A stretch of 64,000 bases of DNA. It comes from Providencia stuartii. Lineage in GTDB: Bacteria > Pseudomonadota > Gammaproteobacteria > Enterobacterales > Enterobacteriaceae. The stretch spans positions 62,001-126,000 of the forward strand of contig UGUC01000002.1 of assembly GCA_900455155.1 (NCBI GenBank), in the 5' to 3' direction. The translations under genes and the position numbers were made by a program. This document shows, in pieces, positions 10,366 to 63,592 of the stretch (positions are counted from its first letter, which is position 1; each line of letters begins with the position of its first letter). The notes under the pieces are model-generated. The model searched no databases. It saw only the letters and a program-made list of their open reading frames with translations, and was not told where the DNA came from.

Positions 10366-10518
10366 CTAAAACGTGTCGTCAGGCCGTCCAAAAATCATCT
10401 CGTAGAGTTGGAATATGGCATCATCATCAAAATCAAACCATACCAGCATTGCAATCACGGATAGTGCTGCGGTTATTTCTACCTTGTGCTGCTTGATACA
10501 ACCCCATAATTTTTTCAT
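10366..10518 (-). CDS. Small membrane protein coupled to the repressor gene
   Basis: 50 residues, [20 protein letters not shown]..., with one hydrophobic helix (about 15-27) and an acidic C-terminal part ending GRPDDTF. Its ATG overlaps the repressor TGA (ATGA), so it is translated with the repressor in the lysogen. The ending is nearly the same as that of the repressor (WPDDTFI), which suggests a local duplication. Confidence 0.5.
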
Positions 10519-11171
10519 ATGAACGTATCGTCAGGCCATTGTGACTTGATTACCTTGCCTATGATTGTGCAGTTACCGTTAATAGGGATCAGGTCATAGC
10601 GTGGGTTTAATGGCTCTAGATACTCAACCCCACCCTCTCTAATCAATCGTTTGAATGTGAACTCATCGTTCATCATGCGAGCTATACAGAAGTCACCAAA
10701 GTTAACATCCTGCTCAGGGTCAACAAGTATCAGCATACCTTCTGGGAAGCTAGGACGACCACCTTGAGGGGCTGTCATTGAGTGACCTTCAACCTCTAAC
10801 CAGAATGCGCTATCACTTGCCTTCTTGGCTGTTGGTATCCATGTGATGGCATCTTTCTCTGTATATGAATTGCTGTTTTCGGTAAATGATCCAGCCTGTA
10901 CTTTAGAAAGTAATGGGTATTCATAGGTTGGTTCAACCCTACTAATCGACTCTTCATCAATGCTAATAGTGCCATCTTGATTTATGGTCGGGTTATTGAC
11001 TCCAACATATGCAAGTATCCCAGCTATTTCACTAAATGCTGGCTCTCTCTTTCCTGTCATCCAATGCCCAACGGCACCTTTCGATACTGAAAAATGCTCA
11101 GCCAGATGATCGTATGTAATGCCCTTATCTTTCATGAGGGACTTGGCTAGTTCATACCATTTCATTTTCAT
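10515..11171 (-). CDS. cI: CI/C2-type prophage repressor, LexA-like self-cleaving
   Basis: 218 residues from the ATG at 11169-11171 ([13 protein letters not shown]); a longer frame to 11213 runs back over the operators and is unlikely. N-terminal helix-turn-helix (about 5-55, [27 protein letters not shown]). C-terminal S24 peptidase domain with an Ala-Gly cleavage site in VQAGSF, the Ser in GHSM and the Lys in FTFKRL. It should be cleaved with RecA help on DNA damage, inducing the prophage. Divergent from cro across three operator sites. Confidence 0.93.
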
Positions 11172-11188
11172 AACCCAATAATACGATA

Positions 11189-11256
11189 TGTATACATAAA
11201 TGTGGACAGACAATATGTATACTTTTATGTTGAAATTGCGGATACTTTATGTATAC
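11189..11256. promoter_or_regulatory. Right operator region (OR1-3)
   Basis: Three copies of the ATGTATAC core (TGTATAC at 11189-11195, 11216-11222, 11250-11256) between the divergent repressor and cro genes. The third lies on the pR -10. The numbering order is not assigned. Confidence 0.75.
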
Positions 11257-11954: not shown

Positions 11955-12044
11955 CGATCAAAACAACTGTATCAACAACCAGTAATGGTGACAAGGGAAA
12001 TTTATGGTTTCCCTTTTTTGATACAACAACCCAATGAGGTAATT

Positions 12045-12512
12045 ATGAACCAAATAACTACTTTAGTAAACAGTGGTGAATTAACCATGACTAGCTTAGA
12101 AATATCTGAACTAGTCGAATCAAGGCATGACAAGGTTAAACAATCAATCGAAAGACTGTCAGAAAGAGGGGTAATAACTTTACCCCCAATGGGGGAAAAG
12201 CCCACAGCAGGCAGGCCGAGCACTTTTTACATTTTTTCAGGCGAAAAAGGAAAGCGCGATAGCATTATTGTTGTCGCTCAATTATCACCAGAGTTTACAG
12301 CGCGATTAGTTGATCGCTGGCAAGAACTTGAATCTCAAAAATCCCTCATTCCTCAAACGCTGCCAGAAGCTTTACGTCTGGCGGCAGACTTAGCAGAACA
12401 GAAACAAATAGTTGAACAGAAATTAGCAATTGCAGCGCCTAAAGCTGAATTTGTTGATCGGTACGTTCAAGCTACTGGCTTACTGGCTAGAGAGCAATTG
12501 GAGGCAGCATGA
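12045..12512 (+). CDS. Rha-family phage regulatory protein
   Basis: 155 residues from the ATG at 12045 (MNQITTLVNSGELTM), preceded by a GAGG box; an upstream in-frame start would add 20 residues. N-terminal Rha domain (MTSLEISELVESRHDKVKQSIERLSERGVI...STFYIF). The rest (LPEALRLAADLAEQKQIVEQKLA...FVDRYVQATGLLA) is the start of a KilAC/ANT-type domain, which then stops early. Rha proteins affect lysogenic development in IHF-deficient hosts. The C-terminal domain seems cut where the HNH gene begins. Confidence 0.75.
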   Translation: MNQITTLVNSGELTMTSLEISELVESRHDKVKQSIERLSERGVITLPPMGEKPTAGRPSTFYIFSGEKGKRDSIIVVAQLSPEFTARLVDRWQELESQKSLIPQTLPEALRLAADLAEQKQIVEQKLAIAAPKAEFVDRYVQATGLLAREQLEAA

Positions 12513-14249: not shown

Positions 14250-15158
14250 ATGAACTTTTTCAAAAATGCGATTGTGTATCGTATAACTCGTGACATTCAA
14301 ATTTCAGCAGATGAACTTGAAGCGCAATTAAAAAATCTTAAATTTTCACCCTGTGGAAGTCAGGACATGATGAAAGCTGGTTGGACTAATCCAATTAAAA
14401 CAGGTGAAGCATTAACTCATTCAGTGGGTAATCAAATACTCATTGTTGCCAAGCGTGAAGAAAAAATATTACCGTCTGATGTTATCAAAAAAGAGCTGCA
14501 AGCCAAGGTTGATAAGCTGGAAGCCGACCAAGGGCGTAGGCTGAAAAAGACCGAGAAAGACAGCTTGAAAGACGAAGTTATTCACACATTGCTACCTCGA
14601 GCTTTTAGCAAGGAATCTGTAGTCAGAATTTGGATTGATAACGACAATCAAAGAATCATTGTCGATGCAAGTAGTGCAAAACGAGCCGAAGATACACTAG
14701 CACTACTGAGAAAAACGTTAGGTTCATTACCAGTAGTTCCACTTTCCATGGAAACACCAATCGAACTGACTCTCACTGAATGGTTACGTGATGGAACGAT
14801 CCCTAAAGGGTTTAATTTTACCGATGAGGCGGAACTTAAAGCAATTTTAGAAGAAGGTGGCATTGCCAGATTCAAGAAGCAAGATTTAGTTTCTGACGAA
14901 ATAGCCTCACACATTGAAGCAGGTAAATTAGTAACGAAATTATCTCTAGATTGGAATGAAACAATTCAATTTACCTTGTGCGACGATGGATCACTTAAAA
15001 AAATCAAGTTCTCAGATGTGCTAAAAGAGCAAAACGATGATATCGACAGAGAAGATATCGCCCAGCGATTTGATGCAGATTTTGCTCTGTTTACAGGTGA
15101 AATGACGCGACTAATCGACTCGCTCATTGACTCACTTGGCGGTGAAGCAAGTTGTTAA
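14250..15158 (+). CDS. rdgC: Recombination-associated protein RdgC
   Basis: 302 residues, the size of host RdgC. The start [57 protein letters not shown] and [16 protein letters not shown] are family hallmarks. RdgC is a ring-forming DNA-binding protein that restrains RecA filaments. Carriage by a phage beside the O/P replication genes may shield replicating phage DNA or temper RecA action; this is inferred. Confidence 0.92.
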
Positions 15159-21927: not shown

Positions 21928-22285
21928 AATGGCAAAAAAATAGCCCCTGGTGTTGAGGCTTGAAAAGGAAATAATCTTTGCTGTGTACATCTTAAGGACG
22001 GCACTAATTCTATACAGAGTTTATTCAATTAGTTACATGGTAGTTAAAAATAAGTTTGATTATGTAAATTTATTTATCTTCCAATGAATCAGAAGCTTTT
22101 TAATAGGTGTAATTATCCCACCATTTAAGGGGGTGATCGCTATCTTGACTGCTAGGAACAGACTAGAAGTTGCTTAGCAGAGTATCGCTAAGCTGCGAAC
22201 TTTACGCATTTCACCGCTCATTCACAGAGCAATTCTAAAACGTCGAATCCAATCACTTTGATATGAGCCTTCGAGGAAGTCAGTT

Positions 22286-22363
22286 ATGGCTGGCGAGCTT
22301 CGACGGGCTGATTTCCTATGTGAACGAGGGTTCATTTCAAATGAAGGTAATACGTATGAATAA
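22286..22363 (+). CDS. 25-residue ORF coupled to the KilA-N gene
   Basis: MAGELRRADFLCERGFISNE..., with GAGGAAG before the ATG. Its stop overlaps the KilA-N ATG (ATGAATAA), so it may act as a translated leader. No homology recognised. Confidence 0.35.
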   Translation: MAGELRRADFLCERGFISNEGNTYE

Positions 22364-23123
22364 TATTATTCCTCTCGAATATGATGGGCACCCTGTGCGT
22401 TTTAATAACGACGGATGGATCAATGCTACCGATATAGCAGCTAAATTTGGGAAAGTGCCCAATGAGTGGGTCAGGCTTCCTGAAACAATAGCCTATATTC
22501 AAGCACTTGAAGGTAGATACGGGAAAATCCCGTATGTAAAAACTAGCAAAGCTAGGAAAGATAGGGGTGGCGGAACATGGCTGCACCCAAAACTAGCAGT
22601 GCGTTTCGCTCGCTGGCTGTCCGTTGATTTTGAAATATGGTGTGATGAACAAATTGATGCTCTTATCCGTGGTAATATGCCAGTTTATAATGATGAGAGA
22701 ATCAATGCGATATTCTTACTTGATAAGCCAACATCATGGGAGAAGCGCTTTCAACAACCTTTCTATCAAGCATTAAGCCGAATGTCTGGTTTGCCTTATT
22801 CTGGTCATGTTGGTGGTTGTCCATCGCTATTCGGGATGATAACAGCTAAGTGGGTATACCAAGCCGTGTTGCCTGATTCTGTTTATGAAGAAGCTAAGCA
22901 GATGGCAAAGGACAGTAAAGATAAAATACACCAATACCTAAAACCAGAAGCTTTACAACTGGTGCAGGATCAATTAGTTGCTGTCACTACTTTAGCTAAC
23001 GGTTGCATTGACTATAAAGACTTTGAAGCTAGATGTGTTCAGGCTTTTGGTAAGTCAGGAATGCAAGGGCTTCTAGTTTTTCCAAGTCATCAACAGTCAT
23101 CACACTCTGCAACATTACAATAG
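22356..23123 (+). CDS. KilA-N domain protein with P63C-like C-terminus
   Basis: 255 residues from the ATG at 22356 (MNNIIPLEYDGHPVRF), preceded by GAAGG; longer frames read back into the leader. KilA-N DNA-binding domain (about 1-105: VRFNNDGWINATDIAAKFGK...WLHPKLAVRFARWLSVDFEIWCDEQI). The second half (WEKRFQQPFYQALSRMSGLPYSG...KWVYQAVLPDSVYEEAK) fits the P63C domain. Probably a phage regulator or antirepressor; its role here is unknown. Confidence 0.8.
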   Translation: MNNIIPLEYDGHPVRFNNDGWINATDIAAKFGKVPNEWVRLPETIAYIQALEGRYGKIPYVKTSKARKDRGGGTWLHPKLAVRFARWLSVDFEIWCDEQIDALIRGNMPVYNDERINAIFLLDKPTSWEKRFQQPFYQALSRMSGLPYSGHVGGCPSLFGMITAKWVYQAVLPDSVYEEAKQMAKDSKDKIHQYLKPEALQLVQDQLVAVTTLANGCIDYKDFEARCVQAFGKSGMQGLLVFPSHQQSSHSATLQ

Positions 23124-31463: not shown

Positions 31464-32399
31464 GTGAGTTCAGGAGCCAAGGTCATCACGGCCTTTATTC
31501 GTGAGACAACAACGGGTGTCACTCCGACAAGTGGCAAGTGGGATTTATTAACGCGCACAAGTTACGGCGTAAAACCCACACAAAATACGTCTGATAATGA
31601 CGAGATAGGCGGGTCACGTATGGCTCAGGGTAAGTCTCTCACAACAGTAGATGTGGGTGGCGATGTTGGTGCCAAGTTCCGCTATGGTCAACACGATGCC
31701 TTTTTGGCGTCCTGTTTTGGTGCTGAGTGGGTAAATAATAAGTTAACAATGGGTAATGAGCGGATCACTTTCTCATTAGCAACATTTGCTGCTGACATTG
31801 GGGTCGCGTCAATTGCTCGCGGTTGTCAAGTGGGGGCTATGCAACTCGAAACGCCAGCGGATGGTGACGTAACAGTGACTGTGACGTTTTCTGGCTTAGA
31901 CTTTGAGTCGAAGGGTGACGGTACTAAATATCACACAGATACAGTTGATAATGCAGGTAAATTGCGGTACAGCTTCAAAGAAGTCACTAACCTTAAACTG
32001 AATGGTATTCAAGGCGGTAATGGATTCTGTGTTGATTCATTTAGTTTGAACTTTGACAACAATATGCAAGTTCAGCGCTGTATTGGCACTGGAACGCCAT
32101 TTGCGGGGGCTAATATCCCAACCACATTTACTCCATCCGGAAGCATCACGCTCTCTTGGTCTAAAGCCGCTTGGGAGATTTGGAAGAAAACTTTAACTGG
32201 TGAAACCATCCCGTTTGAGTTCACTTTGCAAAATGCGGAAGGGGGTTATACGTTTTTATTCCCAGCTGTACAGGTTGACGGTGATTGGCCGGATGGTGGC
32301 AATACGGACATTATTCAGGTTCAACTTAATATCACAGCAGCAGATACCCCACCTACAATTACACGTATTCCGCCTGTGACCAATGGCGATGAAGAGTAA
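31464..32399 (+). CDS. Major tail tube protein
   Basis: 311 residues from a GTG at 31464 after AGGAGG. TGVTPTSGKWDLLTRTSYGVKPTQNTSDNDEIGGSR is typical of the siphophage tail-tube family with phage_tail_tube/immunoglobulin-like topology, and VDSFSLNFDNNMQVQRCIGTGTPFAGANIPT continues it. It follows the tail terminator and precedes the assembly chaperones. Confidence 0.88.
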   Translation: MSSGAKVITAFIRETTTGVTPTSGKWDLLTRTSYGVKPTQNTSDNDEIGGSRMAQGKSLTTVDVGGDVGAKFRYGQHDAFLASCFGAEWVNNKLTMGNERITFSLATFAADIGVASIARGCQVGAMQLETPADGDVTVTVTFSGLDFESKGDGTKYHTDTVDNAGKLRYSFKEVTNLKLNGIQGGNGFCVDSFSLNFDNNMQVQRCIGTGTPFAGANIPTTFTPSGSITLSWSKAAWEIWKKTLTGETIPFEFTLQNAEGGYTFLFPAVQVDGDWPDGGNTDIIQVQLNITAADTPPTITRIPPVTNGDEE

Positions 32400-35334: not shown

Positions 35335-35931
35335 ATGATTTCTGAGGCTATTATGATGGCAATGCTATCAAGTCCAACAGATAAAAAAGATGTGGATTCA
35401 GGCTTGGCCAATTTGGCTATGTCTATAGCTACTATTGTCGATAAAAAGTCAAAAGGTGATGTATCGGCAGATGAAATTATGGATTTAATTGTTGATGGCA
35501 AGACCGTGCTAACGACCCTTGTAGCTTCAATCGATGAAGTAATAACTTTACTTGATGACCCAACAAAAGATGACATAAAAAAACATGCAGGTAATAACCC
35601 AGAAGATGTAATGCATGAGTTGGAGCGGGTGATTAAGCATGGTAATAATGCAGTTATGATGATTGAGGCAATGTATAGCATTGCTAAAACTACCAAGGCT
35701 TTTCATCCATTTGAAAGCATAGCTGATGGTTACTTTAAAGAAGTTATTCTTAAAATGTCTGCATTAAGAAACCATATGCAAGCAATATATCGACAATTTA
35801 ACCAACATATTAACCAGTTGCCTGCAATGGTAGAGGAAGATGGGTTTAGCGACGAGGATATAGCCTTATTTAATTCCTCAATTGCTGAATTTAATCGAGA
35901 TCTGCTTGCTGGTAACTTGCAATGCCAATAG
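35335..35931 (+). CDS. Helical protein, candidate antitoxin partner
   Basis: 198 residues, all-helical, acidic, starting MISEAIMMAMLSSPTDKKDVDSGL. No helix-turn-helix or ribbon-helix-helix is clear. A TATAAT box lies about 40 bases upstream. It overlaps the YafO-like gene by 10 bases. The family is unknown to me; context suggests it neutralises the toxin, but it is larger than YafN. Confidence 0.5.
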   Translation: MISEAIMMAMLSSPTDKKDVDSGLANLAMSIATIVDKKSKGDVSADEIMDLIVDGKTVLTTLVASIDEVITLLDDPTKDDIKKHAGNNPEDVMHELERVIKHGNNAVMMIEAMYSIAKTTKAFHPFESIADGYFKEVILKMSALRNHMQAIYRQFNQHINQLPAMVEEDGFSDEDIALFNSSIAEFNRDLLAGNLQCQ

Positions 35932-36332
35932 TCACAATCACACCAAAATATAAAGATAACAGTGTTTATCGGAAGTATGCGGCTAAGCTATCAGCAGCTC
36001 TTAATGGCTCATCCCTCTCTGGGTATGTGGGTAAATTTGCTGATTTTAGAAACAGCTCAATAGCGCGTCAGTCATTCATTGAAAAGGTTCATATAAGAAC
36101 GCCAAATGAAAAACCTTGGGATGGTGAAACTCGACAGGCTGTTAGAGTGAGCGATAACTTCTTGGTGTTTTGTAAGCACTGTATGTACGATGATTATTAC
36201 CAAATTCTGGCAATCATAACTCCTGATGCACATGCTCGTTCAGATGCGTTGCTTCCAATATTGGCAGATATGGCAGAAGCTCATTTTCATTCTTTATCAC
36301 CTAAAGAGTTAGCTGAATTAGAGCAATTCTAG
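35922..36332 (+). CDS. YafO-like toxin (ribosome-dependent mRNA interferase)
   Basis: 136 residues. EKVHIRTPNEKPWDGETRQAVRVSDNFLVFCKHCMYDDYYQILAIITPDAHARSD...MAEAHF aligns with YafO (VAHIHLANENNPFPPQLRQFSRTNDEAHLVYCQG...WLLIAILKPEPHKLARD...GKMAEAF). YafO cleaves mRNA with help from the ribosome. Second gene of an overlapping pair, but the upstream gene is not a YafN-type antitoxin. Confidence 0.65.
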   Translation: MPIVTITPKYKDNSVYRKYAAKLSAALNGSSLSGYVGKFADFRNSSIARQSFIEKVHIRTPNEKPWDGETRQAVRVSDNFLVFCKHCMYDDYYQILAIITPDAHARSDALLPILADMAEAHFHSLSPKELAELEQF

Positions 36333-36356
36333 TTAGCCCGTCCATGGGCTGGGTGG

Positions 36357-37040
36357 TTAGGGTTTTGGTTTATCTCTATTCACTGCCGCTTGTCGTGGGC
36401 CTTCTGGCAGCGAACCGAACATATTATCAACTTCTTTCGGTTCGGTGATGCCTTGCTGAACAATCATATTGATGAGCGTGAAAAGCTTAAATGAGACATC
36501 ATCAAAAATCACCATCGCTGATAGTGCCAGGGTGAACGGCATTGTTTCCAACAATACGGATTATGTCTGCTGATTTAATCAATTTTTTAGATATAAGCTC
36601 ATCTTTTGCCAATGTTGCTAAGTCATCATTGATATTTTTACCTTTACCTCCAAGATGAATACAAAGTTTTTGTAGGCCTAATCGAAGTAGTGCAACAGCC
36701 CCTCTAGGTGATTTTTGATAGATGTTAGCAGCCTCTAGATAGTCTTTTTTAACATCTTCAGGCATGTCTTCAGAAGGCGGGGCAATGCCTGTTGCATCAG
36801 GGTATATTATTGTTCCTGATGGATAGCTTTCTCCTATCTCATTAATGTAATTATTAGTCTTCATCCAAATGTGTGGTTGCTTACAAGAAGCACAAGTAAC
36901 ATGCCAAAAATCTGAGATATAACATCCGCCTTTTGGGCAATTGTAGAGTAATGACTCCCATATCATCTGTGAAAAAAGCACCACAATGAGGGCAAGTAAA
37001 AGACTCGCCTTTAAAATTCGGAGGTATTATTTTTAGACAT
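36357..37040 (-). CDS. DUF4145-domain protein, frame interrupted at three places
   Basis: Pieces: MSKIIPPNFKGESFTCPHCGAF, SQMIWESLLYNCPKGGCYISDFWHVTCASCKQPHIWM...GAVALLRLGLQKLC, and DDVSFKLFTLINMIVQQGITEPKEVDNMFGSLPEGPR. One surplus base each at 37030-37034 (T5), 36972-36977 (A6) and 36504-36508 (A5) restores a 226-residue protein. N-terminal zinc ribbon (CPHCG, CASCK), then the DUF4145 helical domain. The domain often occurs near restriction or defence genes. It follows the HTH regulator on the same strand. Confidence 0.7.
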
Positions 37041-37088
37041 CTTAAACATCCTTATTTATCAGTTTTTTGAGTATTTTTGTTGAACGTA

Positions 37089-37487
37089 TCAATCATCATC
37101 AATAATCCCACGCTCAACCATTTCTTGGTATAGCTTCAGCCGATCTATTACGACCTCGTTGAAAGACTTACCTGTTTCCTCGGCTTCTGCCATAAGTGCA
37201 TCATATACATCAGCAGGAAAATGAAACCAATGGTCAGTCTCTCCCTCAGCCTTTGGTGCATCTATGGAGAAATTAGTTTCATCCCCAGTCGCTAGCCACT
37301 CATATGGAACAGATAGCACTTCTGCAAGAGCTGCGATTGTCTTTGGGCGAGGTTTATTTACTCCAGATTCATATCTTGATATTTGAGCAGGGGCAATCCC
37401 TGTTAACTTAGCTACCCAATCTTGAGTGTAACCAAGCTCAGCTCGTCTTCTTGTTAACCTGCTAGCTAAAGTGTCATGATTTGTCAT
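37089..37487 (-). CDS. HTH regulator fused to a ribbon-helix-helix domain
   Basis: 132 residues. XRE helix-turn-helix at about 8-66 (LGYTQDWVAKLTGIAPAQISRYESGVNKPRPKTI), then a C-terminal Arc/Mnt-like domain (WFHFPADVYDALMAEAEETGKSFNEVVIDRLKLYQ, about 86-118). It is divergent from an operon with an antirepressor gene, so it probably represses it, as Mnt and Arc control ant in P22 immI. The fusion of two DNA-binding folds is unusual. Confidence 0.75.
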   Translation of the reverse strand: MTNHDTLASRLTRRRAELGYTQDWVAKLTGIAPAQISRYESGVNKPRPKTIAALAEVLSVPYEWLATGDETNFSIDAPKAEGETDHWFHFPADVYDALMAEAEETGKSFNEVVIDRLKLYQEMVERGIIDDD

Positions 37488-37505
37488 AAAATATCATCAA
37501 AAGTA

Positions 37506-37544
37506 TTGACCGTGATGTGAGTTCATGTGTATTATCCTACATGA
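37506..37544 (+). promoter_or_regulatory. Promoter/operator of the HNH-ant operon
   Basis: TTGACC (37506-37511), 18-base spacer, TATTAT (37530-37535). A palindrome with arms TCATGT/ACATGA (37523-37544) overlaps the -10, a likely site for the divergent HTH-RHH regulator. Confidence 0.6.
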
Positions 37545-37570
37545 CATTTCATGATATTTAAATACTAAAG

Positions 37571-38224
37571 ATGATGAAAAAGATAAAAACTATAGCTCAA
37601 ATAAAGGATATTGAGTTATTCAAAAAGAAAATGTTAGCTAAGGTTGAAAAGGATAATTCAACCAGTTGCTGGGTGTGGCGAGGAAGTAAAAATTATGATG
37701 GTTATGGTAATTTTTCTTTCGAAAGGCGTATATGGTCGGCACATAGGTCCATGTATGAACTATTTAACGCTCCGATAATTCCTGAGGAAAATAGCGGTAA
37801 GTGGTGGGTATTACACAAGTGTGACAATCCATCATGTGTTAATCCAGAACATTTGTATATTGGAAGTGCAAAGGATAATGCAAGAGATATGGCTGATAGA
37901 AACAGAATGCGATTAGGTTGCAGGCCACTATCTGAATCTTATGGAGTAAAAATAGACCCTCATAAGCGATATGGAACAGTGCATTATGAAATAAATGGCG
38001 AAATAAAGACACTAAAGGAATGGTCTGAATTATCAGGCATTAACATCAGTACGCTAGATCGTCGATTGCAGGATGGTTGGCCTGAAGAGGACTTATTCAA
38101 ACCGACTAATATTAATAACCGACACATTAACAGAAAAGGCTTTACGACTTATAAAAGGTTTTCTGGTGTGGCAGAGGTTGATAGTTATATAAAAAGCAAA
38201 GCCCCAACTATTTGCGGTAGCTAG
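37571..38224 (+). CDS. HNH endonuclease (homing type)
   Basis: 217 residues. CWVWRGSKNYDGYGNF...AHRSMYELFNAPI...WVLHKCDNPSCVNPEHLYIGSAKDNARDM is the HNH_3/AP2-like homing endonuclease pattern with two Cys ligands and the HLYIGS segment. The C-terminal part (YEINGEIKTLKEWSELSGINISTLDRRLQDGWPEEDLF) is a DNA-binding repeat. It is inserted between the promoter and the ant gene. Confidence 0.8.
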   Translation: MMKKIKTIAQIKDIELFKKKMLAKVEKDNSTSCWVWRGSKNYDGYGNFSFERRIWSAHRSMYELFNAPIIPEENSGKWWVLHKCDNPSCVNPEHLYIGSAKDNARDMADRNRMRLGCRPLSESYGVKIDPHKRYGTVHYEINGEIKTLKEWSELSGINISTLDRRLQDGWPEEDLFKPTNINNRHINRKGFTTYKRFSGVAEVDSYIKSKAPTICGS

Positions 38225-38260
38225 GGCTTCTAATTTGTCAGAAACTACGGAGTAACCGAC

Positions 38261-39056
38261 ATGACTAGTGTATCAACAATTAACGTACCTTTCCACGGCA
38301 ACAACCTGTATGTAGTAAATTTCAACGGCGAACCATATGTACCAATGAAGCCAATAGTTGAAGGTATGGGTCTTGCGTGGGGTGCTCAATTTATCAAAAT
38401 AAAACAACGCTTTGGGAAAGGTGTTTCGGAAATCGAAATACCTACAAAAACAGGCAACCAGAATATGATTTGCCTAGCTCTCCGTAAACTTGCTGGCTGG
38501 CTTCACACCATTAGCCCTAACAAAGTCAAACCAGAGATCCGCGATAAAGTAATCAAGTATCAAGAAGAGTGTGATGATGTACTTTACGAATATTGGACTA
38601 CTGGCGAAGTTAAGGCTAAGCCACGTAAACAAGCTAAACAAATCGCAGGTCGTATTACCTCAGAGCAGCAAGAAGCAATTAAGCAGCTTGTCTTAAATCG
38701 CGGTAAAGCATTACCAAAAGATAAGCAAGCAAAAGCAATGATAACTATGTGGTCGTCGTTAAAAAGTCACTTTGGTTGCACGTACAAAGAAATTGATAGC
38801 GATAAATTCACAGAGGCATTATCACTGGCTGCGCGTGTTCCACTTGAAGGTGAGTATTTGCCTAAGCAAGATAATTTACTTGTGGCAAAGTTCAATAAAC
38901 CCAAGGTTATCCATGGCGCTAGAAGGTGCTGTAATTCATATTAGAGCTGTGAATGGATACTGGAATAATGGGCTAAAAGATTCACTCAAGCAACTTGGCT
39001 ATCAGCACACAGGCTCAATGACTGAACACATGATAGATATTCTGTTTCCATCTTGA
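38261..39056 (+). CDS. ant: P22-type antirepressor, frame interrupted near the end
   Basis: N-terminal P22_AR_N domain (about 1-112: STINVPFHGNNLYVVNFNGEPYVPMKPIVEGMGL...ALRKLAGWLHTISPNKVKPEIRDKVIKYQEECDDVLYEYWTTGE). The frame ends at 38944 with HGARRCCNSY; removing one base at the CCC at 38900-38902 continues to ALEGAVIHIRAVNGYWNN...MIDILFPS, ending at 39056, about 264 residues. Ant blocks the prophage repressor. The end repair is less sure than the others. Confidence 0.75.
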
Positions 39057-39140
39057 TTGGGTAATTCATGAAATGAAAGGCGATAACTTAGATAAGATAC
39101 CAGCCTAATAAACAGGACAAGGATGTCCTTCAAGTATATG

Positions 39141-39160
39141 CCGCTTAGTTGCGGTTTTTT
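39141..39160 (+). terminator. Terminator after ant
   Basis: CCGC, TTAGTT loop, GCGG, TTTTTT. The same hairpin type is found after the J-like gene at 49987. Confidence 0.6.
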
Positions 39161-39223
39161 GCTTTGTTTTGCACACACCTAGGGCTATCATAAGGCAAAT
39201 TAATAATACAAATAGGTGATGGG

Positions 39224-39725
39224 ATGAAAAGAATATTAGCAGTGGCTGCGGTGGTTGCTTTGCTGGCAGCCTGCGACAGCAAACCAGATGCCCCGTTCGG
39301 CTTGAAGTGGGGGCAGAGCATGGAAAGTGTCGGCTTTATTAAAGATGGTGATTGTGAGAAGAAGCAAGACGAAACAGTTTTGTGTATTTGGTAATTCAAC
39401 GCCATTTAATGAGCAATCTAATGATAATGCATTAAAATTCAATGATGAAGGCCTTTTTAAGGTCATGTCTATCTCCATTGGAGGGTCGGCATACCAACCA
39501 GATTTTGAGGATTTCAAAAGCAAGCTAAAAAAAGAGGTCGATTTTTTAAATTCCATTGATTTTAACAAAGAGGCTCTAGCTGGTATTACTGAAAAATGCA
39601 ATATAGCAGATACTTGTGATGACATAGAAGTATCATCTAAAACTAGTAAAGGGAGTGCAGAGGTGGAAATATGGAGAAGCGCTCACGACGGAGACCATCA
39701 GCTAGTGGTCACTTTCAGTAAATAG
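39224..39725 (+). CDS. Prophage lipoprotein, frame interrupted
   Basis: Signal peptide and lipobox MKRILAVAAVVALLAAC, then DSKPDAPFGLKWGQSMESVGFIKDGDC; the second frame gives VFGNSTPFNEQSNDNALKFNDEGLFKVMSISIGG...HQLVVTFSK. Removing one base near the T4 run at 39378-39381 joins them into about 166 residues. Asp follows the Cys, the Lol-avoidance signal, so it should stay in the inner membrane. Small lipoproteins of this kind in prophages are often superinfection-exclusion factors; here this is only inference. Confidence 0.65.
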
Positions 39726-39909
39726 CTAACAAACAAATCAAATAAACCCTGCCAATCGGCGGGGTTTTTTTGTTCTAGGAGATAGGAACTATGATCATTC
39801 ATTCAGCATATGCACACCCTAAACGGGTTATTTGTCTGTGCTAATAGAGAAAGTGATTTTTGGGTGTTGCTCAGTCGCTCACTAGGTTGGGGGAGGTTCA
39901 CTAAGGCAA

Positions 39910-40423
39910 CTAGCGGAACATTTCAGCCAAATACTTTTGAATTAGTGGAAGTGCGCTCGGCAGAGCTAGAACCGCCTTCACCGTTAATTCATTCGTCAAA
40001 TGTGTTATGGCACTTGCCGGAAGCTCTCGAAGTTTTGCAATCAGTCCCTTCTTCTCATCTTCTGGAATATTTGAGGCAGAGATGATTGCTTCTAGCTGAG
40101 ACAGTGTGTCAGCGTGAATTTTGATGGTTTGAATGTTTAGGATGGCGCTTAATCCTCCATCATCCCTGAGAAAATCGATTCCCCTTACTAGTGATTCTTG
40201 TTTTGTAAGAGTTTATTTCGACATCTCCGCCAATATATGAATGAAATCCTGTTTCAATAAGATTATGACCAAGGAGATATTGAAGATTCGCAACTAGGTT
40301 ATTCATTGATCCAAACTTTTCAGCGAACTCATGTAAGCTTTGGTTGCTAGGGGTGTCAGGCGACAAATCATATAAGTGTTGTAAAAACTCTCGTTGCAAT
40401 GCTCTATCAAATTTATCAGTCAT
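39910..40423 (-). CDS. Hypothetical moron protein, frame interrupted
   Basis: MTDKFDRALQREFLQHLYDLSP...SYKTRITSKG, then, after removing one base of the C4 run at 40181-40184, IDFLRDDGGLSAILNIQTIKIHADTLSQLEAIISASNIPEDEKKGLIAKLRELPASAITHLTNELTVKAVLAL. About 170 residues with a winged-helix-like N-terminal half and a C-terminal helical segment. Opposite strand to the tail genes, just before the tape measure, so a lysogenic cargo gene. Family function unknown. Confidence 0.6.
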
Positions 40424-40573: not shown

Positions 40574-43500
40574 ATGTCTGAACAATCTTCAAGACTTGTC
40601 ATTATCTTAGATAGCTCGGGTGCTCAAAGAAACTCAGAAAGCTTAGCTGATGCCCTAAATCGCTTGACAGCTCAAGGCGAACGCGCGACAGGGGCAACAG
40701 ACAACCTAGGCTTTTCATTCAAGCGCCTTGCAGCATCGGCAGCAGGTGCGCTATCTATCGGTGCCAGTTATAAAAATAGCCGACGATTGGGGGCAAGTTG
40801 CAGCACGAATTAAAATGGCTCTCAAGTCAGTAGAAGGCGATATCAAGAATTACGCAGATATCCAAGAGCGTTTTTTGGAGATAAGTAACCGTAACGGTAA
40901 GAATATTGAAGATGTTCAGTTGCTCTATATCGGCGCTGCAACATCAATGCAAGAACTTGGGTATAACACTACACAGACTATTGATTACATTGAATCTTTA
41001 TCATCTGCAATGACTGCCAACGCGTCAAGTGCTAATGAAGTCATGTCGATGCAAAACGCGCTAAATAAAGCGATGGTCGCAGGGAAAGTCGCTGGTGAAA
41101 ACTGGAATTCAATTATGAATGCCACGCCAACCCTGCTGGGCGACATCGCTAGACAGCTAGAAAAGCAAAATGGTGGGATTAAAGTAACCGAAGCTCAAGT
41201 TAAAAAAATGGCGGCAGAGGGTAAGATCTCGTTTAAGCTATTTGCCGATGCAGTGATGGCAGCAAAAGACGCCAATAATGCGCTAGCTGATTCAATGGAT
41301 AACACCGTTGCAGATGGCTTTAACAGGGTAATAAACTCCGCTAAAGCTTATTATGGTGAGCTAAACCAAAGTCTCGGCATCACTCGCTCGATGTCTGCTG
41401 GGTTGGCTGTATTGAGTGATAATTTTAGTGCCGTTTCAACAGTAATCACTAGCATTGTAGGGATAGGCGTTGCCCGCTATTTTGGCAATATGGCAACTTC
41501 AATGAAGAATGCTGCTAAAGAAACGATAAATCAGACTCGGACTGCAAAAGAAAACGCAAAAGCTCAGCTGGATGTGGCAACTCAAGAACAGAGGAGGGCT
41601 GCCGCGGCAGTGAGGAATGCTCAGTTAGACAGAGCGAGACTACAGAATGACATCAACAGGAATGCCAGAACTCGCCAAAGCGCATTGTTATCGGCCGAGT
41701 ACACAGCAGCACTCTCGCGAGAAAGAGCGGCAAAACTTGCGTTAGTACAGGCTAACAATGCTGTTGCAGCATCACAAGAGCGACTCAATACTATTACATC
41801 GATTGGATCTAGAGTAACGGGAATGCTACAAGGTGGTCTTGCGTTGCTTGGCGGCCCCGTGGGCTTAACGATGCTTGTTGCTGGTGGTATGTATATGTTT
41901 GCTCAAAGTATGGAGCAAGCAAAACGGGATGCAATAGAGTTATCCAGAGGGTTAGATGGTTTAGTTGATAAGCTCAAGGAAATGACACGAGAGCAAAAAC
42001 TGGTAAAAATAGGAGAGATTGAAGACGCCATCCCTAAACTAGAGGCCGCACAAAGACAAGCAAGGATAGAGCTTGTTGATGGGCGCTATGAAAGGGAGCT
42101 TAGAAAAAGCAAAAAAGCTCTTGATGAAGCAATAGTTGGGACAAAAGAGCATACATTTGCACTGAAGAAGTTTGAGGAGGCCTCCAAAAATTACGAAGTG
42201 GCTCTAGGAAAAAAAAGCTCAGGCGGAGGCGGATTTAAGTAGAGCGAAAAACACTTCTGCTTTAATCCAAGCAGACCTAAACGGCAAGCTGCTGCAAGGT
42301 GCGGATTTGCTAACCGCGCACACTCGTTCAGTGCTACCAAATGGTGCTGAAGCATTTAAAAGCTTTGGTCTTAATGTGAATGCAGCAGCTAATGCGCTGG
42401 GCAAATTTAACTCTGCCTACTTGACGTTAAGTTTTACCGAAGGTGGTGCAAAATTAAAGCAGCAGCTTGAGCGCGATATAGAACTTGCATCATTAACAGG
42501 TGAAGCCAAAGCAAGAAAGCAAGCGGAGTATATGGCAAGGGATGCTGGAGAAACTGCCCCCGAGAATATCCTAAAACTCCAAGACTTAGCGGCGCAAAGA
42601 TATAGAGAGGAAGAGCGTCAACGCAAGCTGCTTAACTCTCAAAACAAGACTTATACAGAATCCGCAGCACAAAAAAGGCTATCTAGTCTTCTGGAACAAA
42701 ACGCAGCACTTAAGCTTCAAAGTGAAATTGGCGATAAACTTGGCGCACAGCAACTAGCGTTGGTTAAGTGGAACCAAGAAATCGCAGAAATTGAGAAAAA
42801 TAAAGCAAAAGGAAAACGACTAACGGATGACCAAAAATCACTATTAGCCAATAAAGCGTTGATTACGGCTGAGTTAGAACGTGCCGCTGAATACGAAAAA
42901 ATCATCCAGCGCAAGGAAGCCGAAGTCAAAATTGCTGCATACAACAAGCAACTAATGGAGGAAACGGCTCAGGCGCAACGCGCTTATGATATGGAGCTGA
43001 AAGGCGCTGGCATGGGGAATTTAGCTCGAGGCAGGCTGCAGGAGGAATTAAGGCTCAAAGAGGAGTATCTGAAGAAAGAAGAGGAGTTGACCAAGCAATT
43101 CAATGACAAATCAACTGGCATCACGCAAGAGATGTATGATGCAGAAACACAAGTCATCAGAAATGAGCTTGATAAGCGTTTAGTCATGATGCGTGTTCAT
43201 CAAGCTAATATTGATGGCCTGCGGGTTAATTGGCAAAACGGGATTAAAGAGGGGCTTATAAATTATGTTGACAACGCTCGTAACTATAGTCAGCAAGCGG
43301 AAGGATTCATCACAGGGTCGCTGCAAAACATCACGGATGGCTCGGCTAGTGCGCTTACTGACATCGTAACCAACTCGAAAAGTGCGTTTGATGCGATTAG
43401 CGACTTTTTCGGTGATTTAGCGAAATCTATTATCAATGATTTAATCCGAATCGCGATACAGGCACAGATTACTAATGCGATATCAGGGCTGTTTCCAGTA

Positions 43501-44005
43501 GGAGATTCCAAGTCTGTTTTTGATGCAGGCATTAAAGGGTTGGGGTTGTTTAGCGCGGGTGGTTATACAGGCAGGGGCGGTAAATATGATCCGGCTGGTA
43601 TAGTGCATAAAGATGAGTTTGTTTTCAATAAAGAAGCGACTAATCGCATAGGTAAGGAAAAACCTGTACGATTTAATGAATACAGGAGAGATGCCAAACT
43701 ATCAATCAAACTCTGATTCTTATGCCATGAAATACCTTCATCCTGCTAACCAAACCAATAATACCATCAATAATTCCAATGTTAGTAATACAGCTGAACA
43801 CACTGAAAACTCTCAGTCTACAGTTGTCATTCATCAAGCAATAACGCAAACAATTACCGTTACTGGTAATGGTGATAAGGCGCTAATTCAGGCTATGCAG
43901 CAAGCGGCATCTGTCGGTGCAAAAAGAGGTGCTGATGAGGCTGTAGCCAGAATTCAACGTGATTTTGCTACTAATGGAAATACGAGAAAATTATTAGAGA
44001 AATAA
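40574..44005 (+). CDS. Tape measure protein, frame interrupted at three places
   Basis: About 1142 residues after repair. MSEQSSRLVIILDSSGAQRNSESLADALNRL opens a lambda H-like protein; then KIADDWGQVAARIKMAL, the tape-measure domain NIEDVQLLYIGAATSMQELG...AGENWNSIMNATPTLLGDIARQL, membrane-like segments (IGVARYFGNM; GGPVGLTMLVAGGMYMF), long coiled coils, and a C-terminal GGYTGRGGKYDPAGIVHKDEFVFNKEATNRIGKENLYDLMN. One surplus base each at 40772-40776, 42209-42216 and 43658-43662. It sets tail length and passes into the host membrane on infection. Confidence 0.85.
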
Positions 44006-62638: not shown

Positions 62639-62739
62639 GCGCGCCGGCGATCCACATTATCTCTTCGAAAAAATCGTTTTGCTACCCTGTTAAAGCGTAT
62701 TCGATTGGCATTATGGATTAGCGAAAACTAAACTCAATT

Positions 62740-62862
62740 GTGTATAACACACACGGGTCGACACATGCACCGGGGTGCTCTTATGCGTTTTAGCGCAGCT
62801 TTGGAGTCGGTGTTATGGGATCCGTGGAGGCATAACCCCAATTACTTAAAATACAGAGGTAT
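62740..62862 (+). promoter_or_regulatory. rpsB leader RNA (S2 autoregulatory region)
   Basis: The long untranslated region before rpsB includes a hairpin with GTTATG/CATAAC arms ending 30 bases before the ATG, like the S2-binding leader of gammaproteobacteria. The E. coli tff (t44) RNA maps to the same place. I did not fold it fully. Confidence 0.5.
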
Positions 62863-62865
62863 TAA

Positions 62866-63592
<727 letters not shown>

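Follow-up and report, generated by a model that had tools for sequence, protein, structure and literature searches.

A probable variant of the P22 immI region with a predicted fused regulator, an HNH gene and a sar-like antisense RNA gene in a Providencia stuartii prophage

Introduction

The cassette considered here lies at positions 37089-38944 of a stretch of 64,000 nucleotides from Providencia stuartii (contig UGUC01000002.1), which is called the window below. It is part of a prophage and is placed between tail genes, with the tail tube gene at 31464-32399 and the tape measure gene from 40574 upward. According to the list of open reading frames (ORFs), a minus-strand gene at 37089-37487 points away from two rightward ORFs, 37571-38224 and 38261-38944. 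The immI region of phage P22 is a textbook switch with two ribbon-helix-helix (RHH) repressors and an early-described antisense RNA. Judging from the sequence, we consider it probable that the present cassette is a variant of immI, in which a protein combining a helix-turn-helix (HTH) with an RHH domain is found in the position of Mnt and an HNH protein in that of Arc, while a sar-like gene over the start of the antirepressor gene ant is retained. The genome comprises 4.46 Mb (assembly 94.1% complete, 4 contigs), and a megablast search of 36000-40000 against phages gave zero matches. The features are as follows.

37089-37487, minus strand: regulator of 132 amino acids with HTH_3 at residues 13-65 and a predicted RHH domain at about 83-125, in the position of P22 mnt (Pfam, profiles, AlphaFold, Foldseek, VIA)
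37489-37501, no strand: upstream inverted-repeat arm AAATATCATCAAA, candidate operator, complementary to 37547-37559 at 12/13 positions
37506-37535, plus strand: candidate promoter of the HNH-ant operon, TTGACC-18-TATTAT, 10/12 matches, with a similar -35/-10 region in relatives
37523-37544, no strand: palindrome TCATGT...ACATGA around the -10 element, whole in L047 and L033 only
37547-37559, no strand: downstream inverted-repeat arm TTTCATGATATTT, candidate operator (shuffle comparison)
37571-38224, plus strand: HNH_3 nuclease-like ORF of 217 amino acids, its final codons overlapping the sar-like gene (Pfam, PHROGs)
38186-38262, minus strand: putative gene of a sar-like antisense RNA, spanning the start codon of ant and its ribosome site (Rfam RF00262, model R1, folding)
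38198-38230, minus strand: 13-pair hairpin predicted to terminate the sar-like RNA, with tail GCTTTTTATA (terminator scan, covariation)
38222-38233, plus strand: TAG and TAA splitting HNH from ant in their common frame, which is open in the fused relatives
38261-38944, plus strand: ant, P22_AR_N antirepressor, read as 227 amino acids, with breaks of frame in its C-terminal tail when compared with a relative (Pfam, PHROGs)
38267-38295, minus strand: candidate Psar, with -10 TACACT at 38267-38272 (ant codons 3-4) and -35 TGGAAA at 38290-38295, at the offset of the Psar annotated in P22

Loci used for comparison are given by L numbers and genomes by G numbers.

Results

The sar-like RNA gene

The strongest immI signature of the region is the antisense sar gene, which a preliminary description of this DNA had missed. 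The description had otherwise recognised the region as immI-like, with which the gene order, the P22-type ant and the sar-like RNA all agree. To locate the RNA gene, we used a covariance model, R1, which comprises 16 sequences with the window excluded and models hairpin II only. (Alignment A7 consists of 16 rows out of the 23 in alignment A6; the window, L003, L033, L047, L044, L054 and L055 were left out.) In the 64-kb window, R1 matches 38262-38186 on the minus strand with 56.3 bits and E 3.7e-11, and the runner-up is the same place on the opposite strand (E 0.21). In the 4.46-Mb genome the window site is the sole match reported, with E 2.6e-9, among the 150 of 902 candidates that were scored. 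Both place and length of the element are as for sar of P22, in whose record the order is mnt(-), arc(+), sar(-, 15021-15090) and ant(+, from 15091).

Folded as a single sequence, the 77-nt RNA was found to form two hairpins as in P22 sar (-26.9 kcal/mol, z -4.4); for the opposite, sense strand the value is -14.2 kcal/mol with z -0.65, and the two hairpins are not formed. Hairpin I, which covers the ant start codon, is known from this single-sequence folding, and the hairpin at 38198-38230 scores as a minus-strand terminator. In an alignment of 28 matches from 27 sources, 97.4% of the cells of the 14-pair stem are paired and 8 of the 14 pairs are changed on both sides, with slid controls at 49.7% or below, although fitting the alignment to the model biases it towards the structure. 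On the sar strand, G.U occupies 74 cells of the same matches and A.C 4. Since a G.U on this strand would be an A.C on the opposite one, the antisense strand appears to be the one under selection.

The -10 element of the annotated P22 Psar falls in ant codons 3-4. At the corresponding offset, a hexamer with at least 4/6 matches is present in 24 of 27 loci, the next best offset giving 13 of 27; part of this conservation is due to the common descent of the ant starts. The window has 4/6 in both the -35 and the -10 hexamer. Among the 43 regulator loci discussed below, R1 finds a match at E<=1e-5 in 25, eight of which are model members and several of which are near-identical copies. The other 18 have no match at this threshold, and L052-L054 reach only E 0.004-0.02. 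The sar family of Rfam is above threshold in seven of 14 loci examined, namely 11 around ant relatives (P22 among them) together with L003, L004 and L033, and the RF00262 threshold is reached in 2 of 20 loci of a wider set. A P1-type c4 antisense RNA was considered in place of sar and rejected, as it is absent from the two Rfam matches found at E<=5 in 37000-39200. We conclude from these comparisons that a sar-like gene is present at the ant start, and we infer its antisense action.

Second sar-like matches are also seen away from the main cassette, in L059 (5102-5177, minus strand, 38.0 bits) and in L074 (937-1016, minus strand, 33.4 bits).

The regulator

The N-terminal part of the regulator is matched by HTH_3 at residues 13-65 with E 1.1e-13 (51.4 bits, Pfam cut-off 23). 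For the window protein alone, Pfam gives zero RHH matches at E<=0.1 and PHROGs a weak Arc-like match to phrog_6506 (residues 88-119, E 9.6e-4), and the assignment of an RHH domain could therefore not rest on this protein by itself. Relatives are found in 43 IMG/VR loci, some of them mutual copies, so the regulator type is not unique to the present prophage. Alignment A2 contains 33 proteins, that of the window and 32 from these loci, after ten identical or near-identical copies and L087, with a doubled HTH, had been left out. HTH_3 is present in all 33. In the C-terminal part, Pfam at E<=0.01, overlaps not counted, matches Arc (PF03869) in 2 proteins (best E 5e-13), RHH_1 in 3, DUF6290 in 3 and CopG_antitoxin in 2, and because these matches are few, the RHH domain of most members is reached through alignment, profile or fold only. 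A profile comparison (hhalign) of 12 C-terminal domains, the window's included, with 12 Mnt and Arc proteins of P22 and other phages gives a probability of 96.2% and E 2.6e-9.

In the AlphaFold model the domain has helices at 92-105 and 109-125, in a block with pLDDT of about 89-94; DSSP assigns no RHH strand in the monomer. The comparison of the whole model with the PDB was set aside. Because the HTH occupied its match lists, the C-terminal domain was folded by itself. The first PDB match of this isolated domain in Foldseek is P22 Arc (1par), followed by CdbA, AmrZ and CopG, with E 0.12-0.66 and probability 0.80-0.99 over the top 16 rows, E values that are weak, as is usual for 40-50 residues. 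VIA-align against RHH domains gives Z of about 6, at most 6.6, where values under 8 are modest by the tool's own note. A phmmer search of the regulator against the PDB led to PPR proteins via residues 115-131 and was disregarded. Profile and model together point to a strand-helix-helix fold joined to an HTH in one chain.

This bears out the fusion of an XRE-type HTH with an RHH domain put forward in the preliminary description, for which a C-terminal domain of another fold would have been fatal. The further idea that the folds of Mnt and Arc are united in this chain is supported as regards the HTH/RHH fusion; a Mnt-plus-Arc combination finds no support, the regulator being in the place of Mnt and the HNH in that of Arc. 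From its position, the regulator probably takes Mnt's place.

In L067, L075, L076, L078, L079 and L087, HTH regulators of the family lie opposite a short, separate Arc-like ORF that is followed by antirepressors of other types, and zero sar-like matches are found at the ant leader of these loci at E<=0.01. As read from the loci, an HTH-RHH protein possibly stands there in Mnt's stead, with Arc retained.

Promoter and operator candidates

The candidate promoter of the operon, TTGACC-18-TATTAT at 37506-37535, agrees with the consensus at 10 of 12 positions. Promoter-like sites in the scanned region are not commoner than in shuffled sequences (3 against a mean of 6.6), and the support for the site is therefore the likeness of the region in relatives. 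A TCATGT/ACATGA palindrome had been described at the -10 element. It exists, and its arms (37523-37528 and 37539-37544) sit on both sides of the -10; as judged by eye it is kept in L047, where the DNA is identical, and in L033, and the left arm is not conserved in L048, L050, L056, L057 and L003. For this reason it is by itself weak evidence, and as an operator it was dropped, being whole in these two close relatives only.

More distant arms at 37489-37501 and 37547-37559 bracket the promoter with 12 of 13 positions complementary, which is equalled in 0 of 40 shuffles for the window and in 1 of 40 for L047, which has the same arms. Similar paired arms are present in L048, L050, L056, L057 and L003 (0/40 shuffles each). 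They do not rise above shuffles in L049, L052 and L053 (11-17/40), nor do they stand out in most loci without an HNH gene (3 to 35/40); L065 gives 0/40, but with a low score.

The HNH gene and the antirepressor

The ORF at 37571-38224 matches HNH_3 (PF13392) with E 1.7e-7 and 31.2 bits against a cut-off of 24.8. The HNH motif is kept, by eye, in all seven aligned proteins, and nuclease activity is predicted from the sequence. It is important to point out that HNH and ant share one reading frame and are separated by TAG and TAA at 38222-38233. In the closest relatives the two form one ORF: 606 amino acids in L032/L047 (one contig), 537 in L033/L034 (Morganella morganii) and 543 in Klebsiella phage ST101-KPC2phi6.1 and L050, with further fused ORFs in L048, L056 and L063. 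Pfam finds both domains in L047, L050, L056 and L063, and L033 and L048 were judged from sequence. The gene is separate in L003, L049 and L052-L054. The preliminary description of an HNH nuclease inserted before ant is thus right as to the order of the genes, but a mere insertion does not account for the six distinct relatives in which HNH and antirepressor form a single ORF. On account of this fusion we think that the HNH protein, which holds the place of Arc, may be a domesticated nuclease coupled to ant.

In the six distinct fused ORFs the R1 match (38.9 to 57.6 bits) lies inside the ORF. None of them is in R1, and 97.6% of their stem cells are paired, with 7 of 14 pairs changed on both sides and slid controls at or below 53.8%, in a stretch that is coding; further pair types are not above shuffles in these six (17 vs 16.8). 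By eye, each of the six shows an ATG in the frame of the ORF where the sar-like RNA has its 5' end, and a purine-rich stretch lies ahead of this codon. It is quite possible, though less likely than not, that in these relatives one ORF yields both an HNH-antirepressor protein, from the first start, and a free antirepressor, from the internal start under the sar-like RNA. The RNA could then silence the free form only, as ribosomes coming through from HNH would pass it, and a single transcript would give two products in a ratio set by the antisense RNA; the window would be a recombinant split by stops inside sar.

HNH is lacking in L058-L061, L068 and L077. There, about 100-120 bases separate the regulator start from the sar hairpin, while an Arc gene needs about 160. 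As these loci are too short for Arc and are without HNH, the regulator and sar can apparently form a complete control set. The TTCTAATTTG leader, TAA included, recurs in L058, L059 and L060, so that sequencing errors are a less likely source of the two stop codons separating HNH from ant. A separate case is L057 at about 2120-2240, where, as read from the sequence, HNH appears mostly deleted, with its first codons seemingly left beside the promoter; about 210 bases lie between the regulator start and the sar-like match of this locus.

The product of ant was found to match P22_AR_N with E 1.1e-41 in Pfam, as well as phrog_524/245 in PHROGs, in agreement with its description as a P22-type antirepressor, and it is 35.7% identical to P22 Ant. 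Its tail region, 38850-39056, has no phage match and is covered by a relative from the genus (G016). A candidate target is present in the prophage in the form of an S24 repressor at 10515-11213. Antirepressor genes are also carried by NZ_CP086015.1 (5207 bp) and NZ_CP148432.1 (4452 bp), both filed as plasmids; in the former the gene adjoins that of an HTH regulator, an arrangement resembling a minimal immI cassette that is not part of a phage.

Mosaic structure and distribution

Between 36957 and 38246, the window and L047 share 93.6% identity. Compared in 40-base steps from 37901, they agree at 0.88-1.00 as far as 38210, at 0.85 in 38201-38240 and at 0.45-0.75 in 38231-38660. L077, without HNH, likewise has an identity of 0.85 at 38201-38240, and is closer than L047 downstream of 38261 until about 38650. 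On these identities the window reads as a mosaic with its joint inside sar. The antirepressors behind the sar-like RNA are of P22_AR_N, Bro-N and KilA-N types. It is likely, as part of the favoured explanation, that the sar gene is a conserved joint at which both the upstream part (Arc, HNH or nothing) and the downstream antirepressor type have been swapped. At E<=1e-5, 37 of 392 genomes in the bacterial family have sar-like genes according to R1 (47 matches listed, with the loci limited to 30), most of the classified ones being P22-type, in a set where Rfam's own model was not run; at E<=0.001 it has matches in 7 of 24 genomes of the genus.

Discussion

Proposed mechanism

The explanation that we find best overall, and to which we give good though not full confidence, is a P22-type immI variant with an HTH-RHH repressor, an HNH-ant operon and sar-like control. 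In the lysogen, the divergent HTH-RHH protein would act as repressor of the operon promoter (37506-37535), in the manner of Mnt in P22. The operon mRNA would comprise the HNH gene and ant. The antisense RNA would start from the promoter in the first ant codons, end at the hairpin 38198-38230, and pair with the ribosome site and start codon of ant, thereby blocking translation like P22 sar, an action for which conservation argues. When repression is lost, by superinfection or induction, Ant would be made, and it would be expected to inactivate a repressor of CI/C2 type, the S24 protein being the candidate.

A number of results weigh against this explanation. At a relaxed threshold, Rfam RF00262 matches 38262-38194 on the minus strand with only 20.6 bits (E 0.59), below the gathering value of 43, which is why the element is called sar-like and not curated sar, and RefA9, a different antisense family, has an equally weak match there (22.6 bits, E 1.7). 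The -35 element of Psar is poor, with 4/6 in the window and 3/6 in P22. Ant has no P22_AR_C match in Pfam, as is also the case for L047 and L077, and its tail is scattered over three frames relative to G016; for these two reasons Ant may be inactive here. Arc contacts DNA through Q9, N11 and R13. In the hhalign alignment the window strand has D, W and H at these positions, and since the Arc-type residues are not kept, DNA binding by the RHH domain is a candidate function only. Finally, a home-made hidden Markov model screen (E<=1e-3) was used to class the 37 genome loci, L093-L129, which come from the R1 searches of the family, the genus and the present genome. Separate Mnt-like and Arc-like RHH proteins flank the promoter on both sides, the P22 arrangement, in 27 of them, and the HTH-RHH form is a minority of 3, made up of two loci with HTH and HNH (the window and G027) and one with HTH alone (G050). 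Of the rest, three have a divergent RHH only, one (L121) an S24 repressor and RHH, and three are unclassed; L121 had been a candidate for an HTH-RHH regulator and was dropped, as Pfam gives an S24 CI-type repressor.

Alternative explanations

The HNH gene could instead be a selfish homing endonuclease that invaded immI and was fused to ant by chance, with no role in control, the regulator and sar being sufficient; this we regard as quite possible, though less likely than not. It would fit the HNH_3 match together with weaker matches to zf-His_Me_endon, a homing endonuclease family, which are below the curated cut-off, the many free-standing HNH relatives in phages (1137 phage records), the rarity of the HNH in genomes (2 of 295), the relatives without it (L058-L061, L068, L077), and L057, which from its sequence seems to have lost most of it. 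However, position and orientation of the HNH are constant beside the same regulator type in distant phages, with identities down to 48%, and in six distinct ORFs its frame runs on into the antirepressor, and this constancy and fusion suggest a function shared by the two. As to the regulator, its RHH domain might merely dimerise, with the HTH alone reading DNA, so that the protein would be an ordinary short XRE repressor. The D, W and H at the Arc contact positions, and an RHH domain far more divergent among relatives than the HTH, are in line with this; we nevertheless rather doubt it, given the Pfam Arc matches in 2 of 33 proteins, the 'PQINVRLP...KRSVNSEI' of L061 at the same chain position, and the start of helix B in the window, 'GKSFNE', which resembles 'GRSVNSE' of Arc.

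That the cassette is a decaying remnant, in which hairpin and regulator persist around a non-functional Ant, seems rather unlikely to us. There are indeed frame breaks in the ant tail, in the neighbouring DUF4145 gene and in the tape measure gene, but many clustered breaks would also fit indel errors in an assembly of this completeness and contig number, and the regulator, the HNH core, the sar-like stem and the N-terminal domain of Ant are intact. Very improbable, in our view, is a plain leftward terminator at 38198-38230 without antisense control. The hairpin does score as a minus-strand terminator; yet conservation extends to all 77 nt of the element, to hairpin I at the start codon and to the -10 hexamer within ant codons 3-4, and P22 has its sar, which is reported in the literature to act as an antisense RNA, in the same place.

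If the immI variant with sar-like control is the right explanation, the sar RNA has been retained even though both protein repressors were swapped, and even inside an ORF, which would make it the element of the switch least easily lost. Sar-like control would also extend to antirepressors of Bro-N and KilA-N type. The fused ORFs could serve as a natural experiment on whether an internal start can be controlled by an antisense RNA while the longer protein continues to be made.

Neighbouring features

The frame breaks around the cassette lie in the DUF4145 gene (36502-37044), whose homologue in L032 is a single ORF, in the tape measure gene (40574-43716), which is divided over at least two ORFs, probably three, and in the ant tail (38850-39100). 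They are due either to decay or to sequencing or assembly indels. With several genes frame-broken, the ant tail among them, the activity of the cassette in the present prophage is uncertain.

Beside the cassette, a YafO-type toxin domain (35922-36332, Pfam E 3.9e-19) directly follows an uncharacterised ORF at 35335-35931, and the two form a possible toxin-antitoxin pair. Further antirepressor-like genes of the prophage are found at 22263-23123 (KilA-N with P63C) and at 11985-12512 (a pRha-like protein, slightly under the Pfam cut-off). The ORF 33449-34000 matches the NCBIfam LAPAL motif putative phage structural protein with E 2.4e-36. A t44 RNA at 62730-62836 (74.9 bits) lies shortly ahead of an ORF, 63011-63592, whose product resembles ribosomal protein S2, and this region is probably host DNA outside the prophage.

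Comparison with known systems

According to two reports (PMC11016777; PMC2629481), Mnt of P22 immI represses arc and ant, sar binds the ant mRNA, Arc also represses, and Ant forms a complex with C2. The window has in common with this region a divergent repressor gene, a promoter, a small gene, sar over the ant start, an Ant of the P22 family and a location among late genes. It differs in having an HTH-RHH protein for Mnt, an HNH for Arc, and HNH and ant in one frame; in the hidden Markov model screen its locus, L093, has zero RHH matches at E<=1e-3, with HNH in Arc's place. With curated sar (RF00262) it shares position, orientation, length and the two hairpins, the second being the terminator, while its sequence has diverged to the sub-gathering score given above. 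The C-terminal domain of the regulator is like P22 Arc and Mnt in predicted fold and profile, but it is attached to an XRE HTH and its strand contact residues differ.

In the open-licence literature, no description of an HTH/RHH or HNH/antirepressor fusion, or of sar outside the mnt-arc type, was recognised, which is weak evidence of absence. Among individual phages, Salmonella phage vB_SosS_Oslo also carries its cassette in the tail region, with tail genes on one side and the tape measure gene on the other, and has a sar-like match that is a member of R1, but it has separate Arc-like proteins and no HNH. Klebsiella phage ST101-KPC2phi6.1 (MK448231.1) has an HTH-RHH regulator, HNH, antirepressor and sar-like RNA by the tape measure gene; the sar-like match was read in L050, whose 543-amino-acid protein is 100% identical. 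There, HNH and antirepressor are one protein, annotated only as a hypothetical protein, with Bro-N in place of P22_AR_N. PMC2629481 terms the region of P22-like phages an 'ant moron' that is in rapid flux, with some phages being without arc, and the present cassette both fits and extends that picture.

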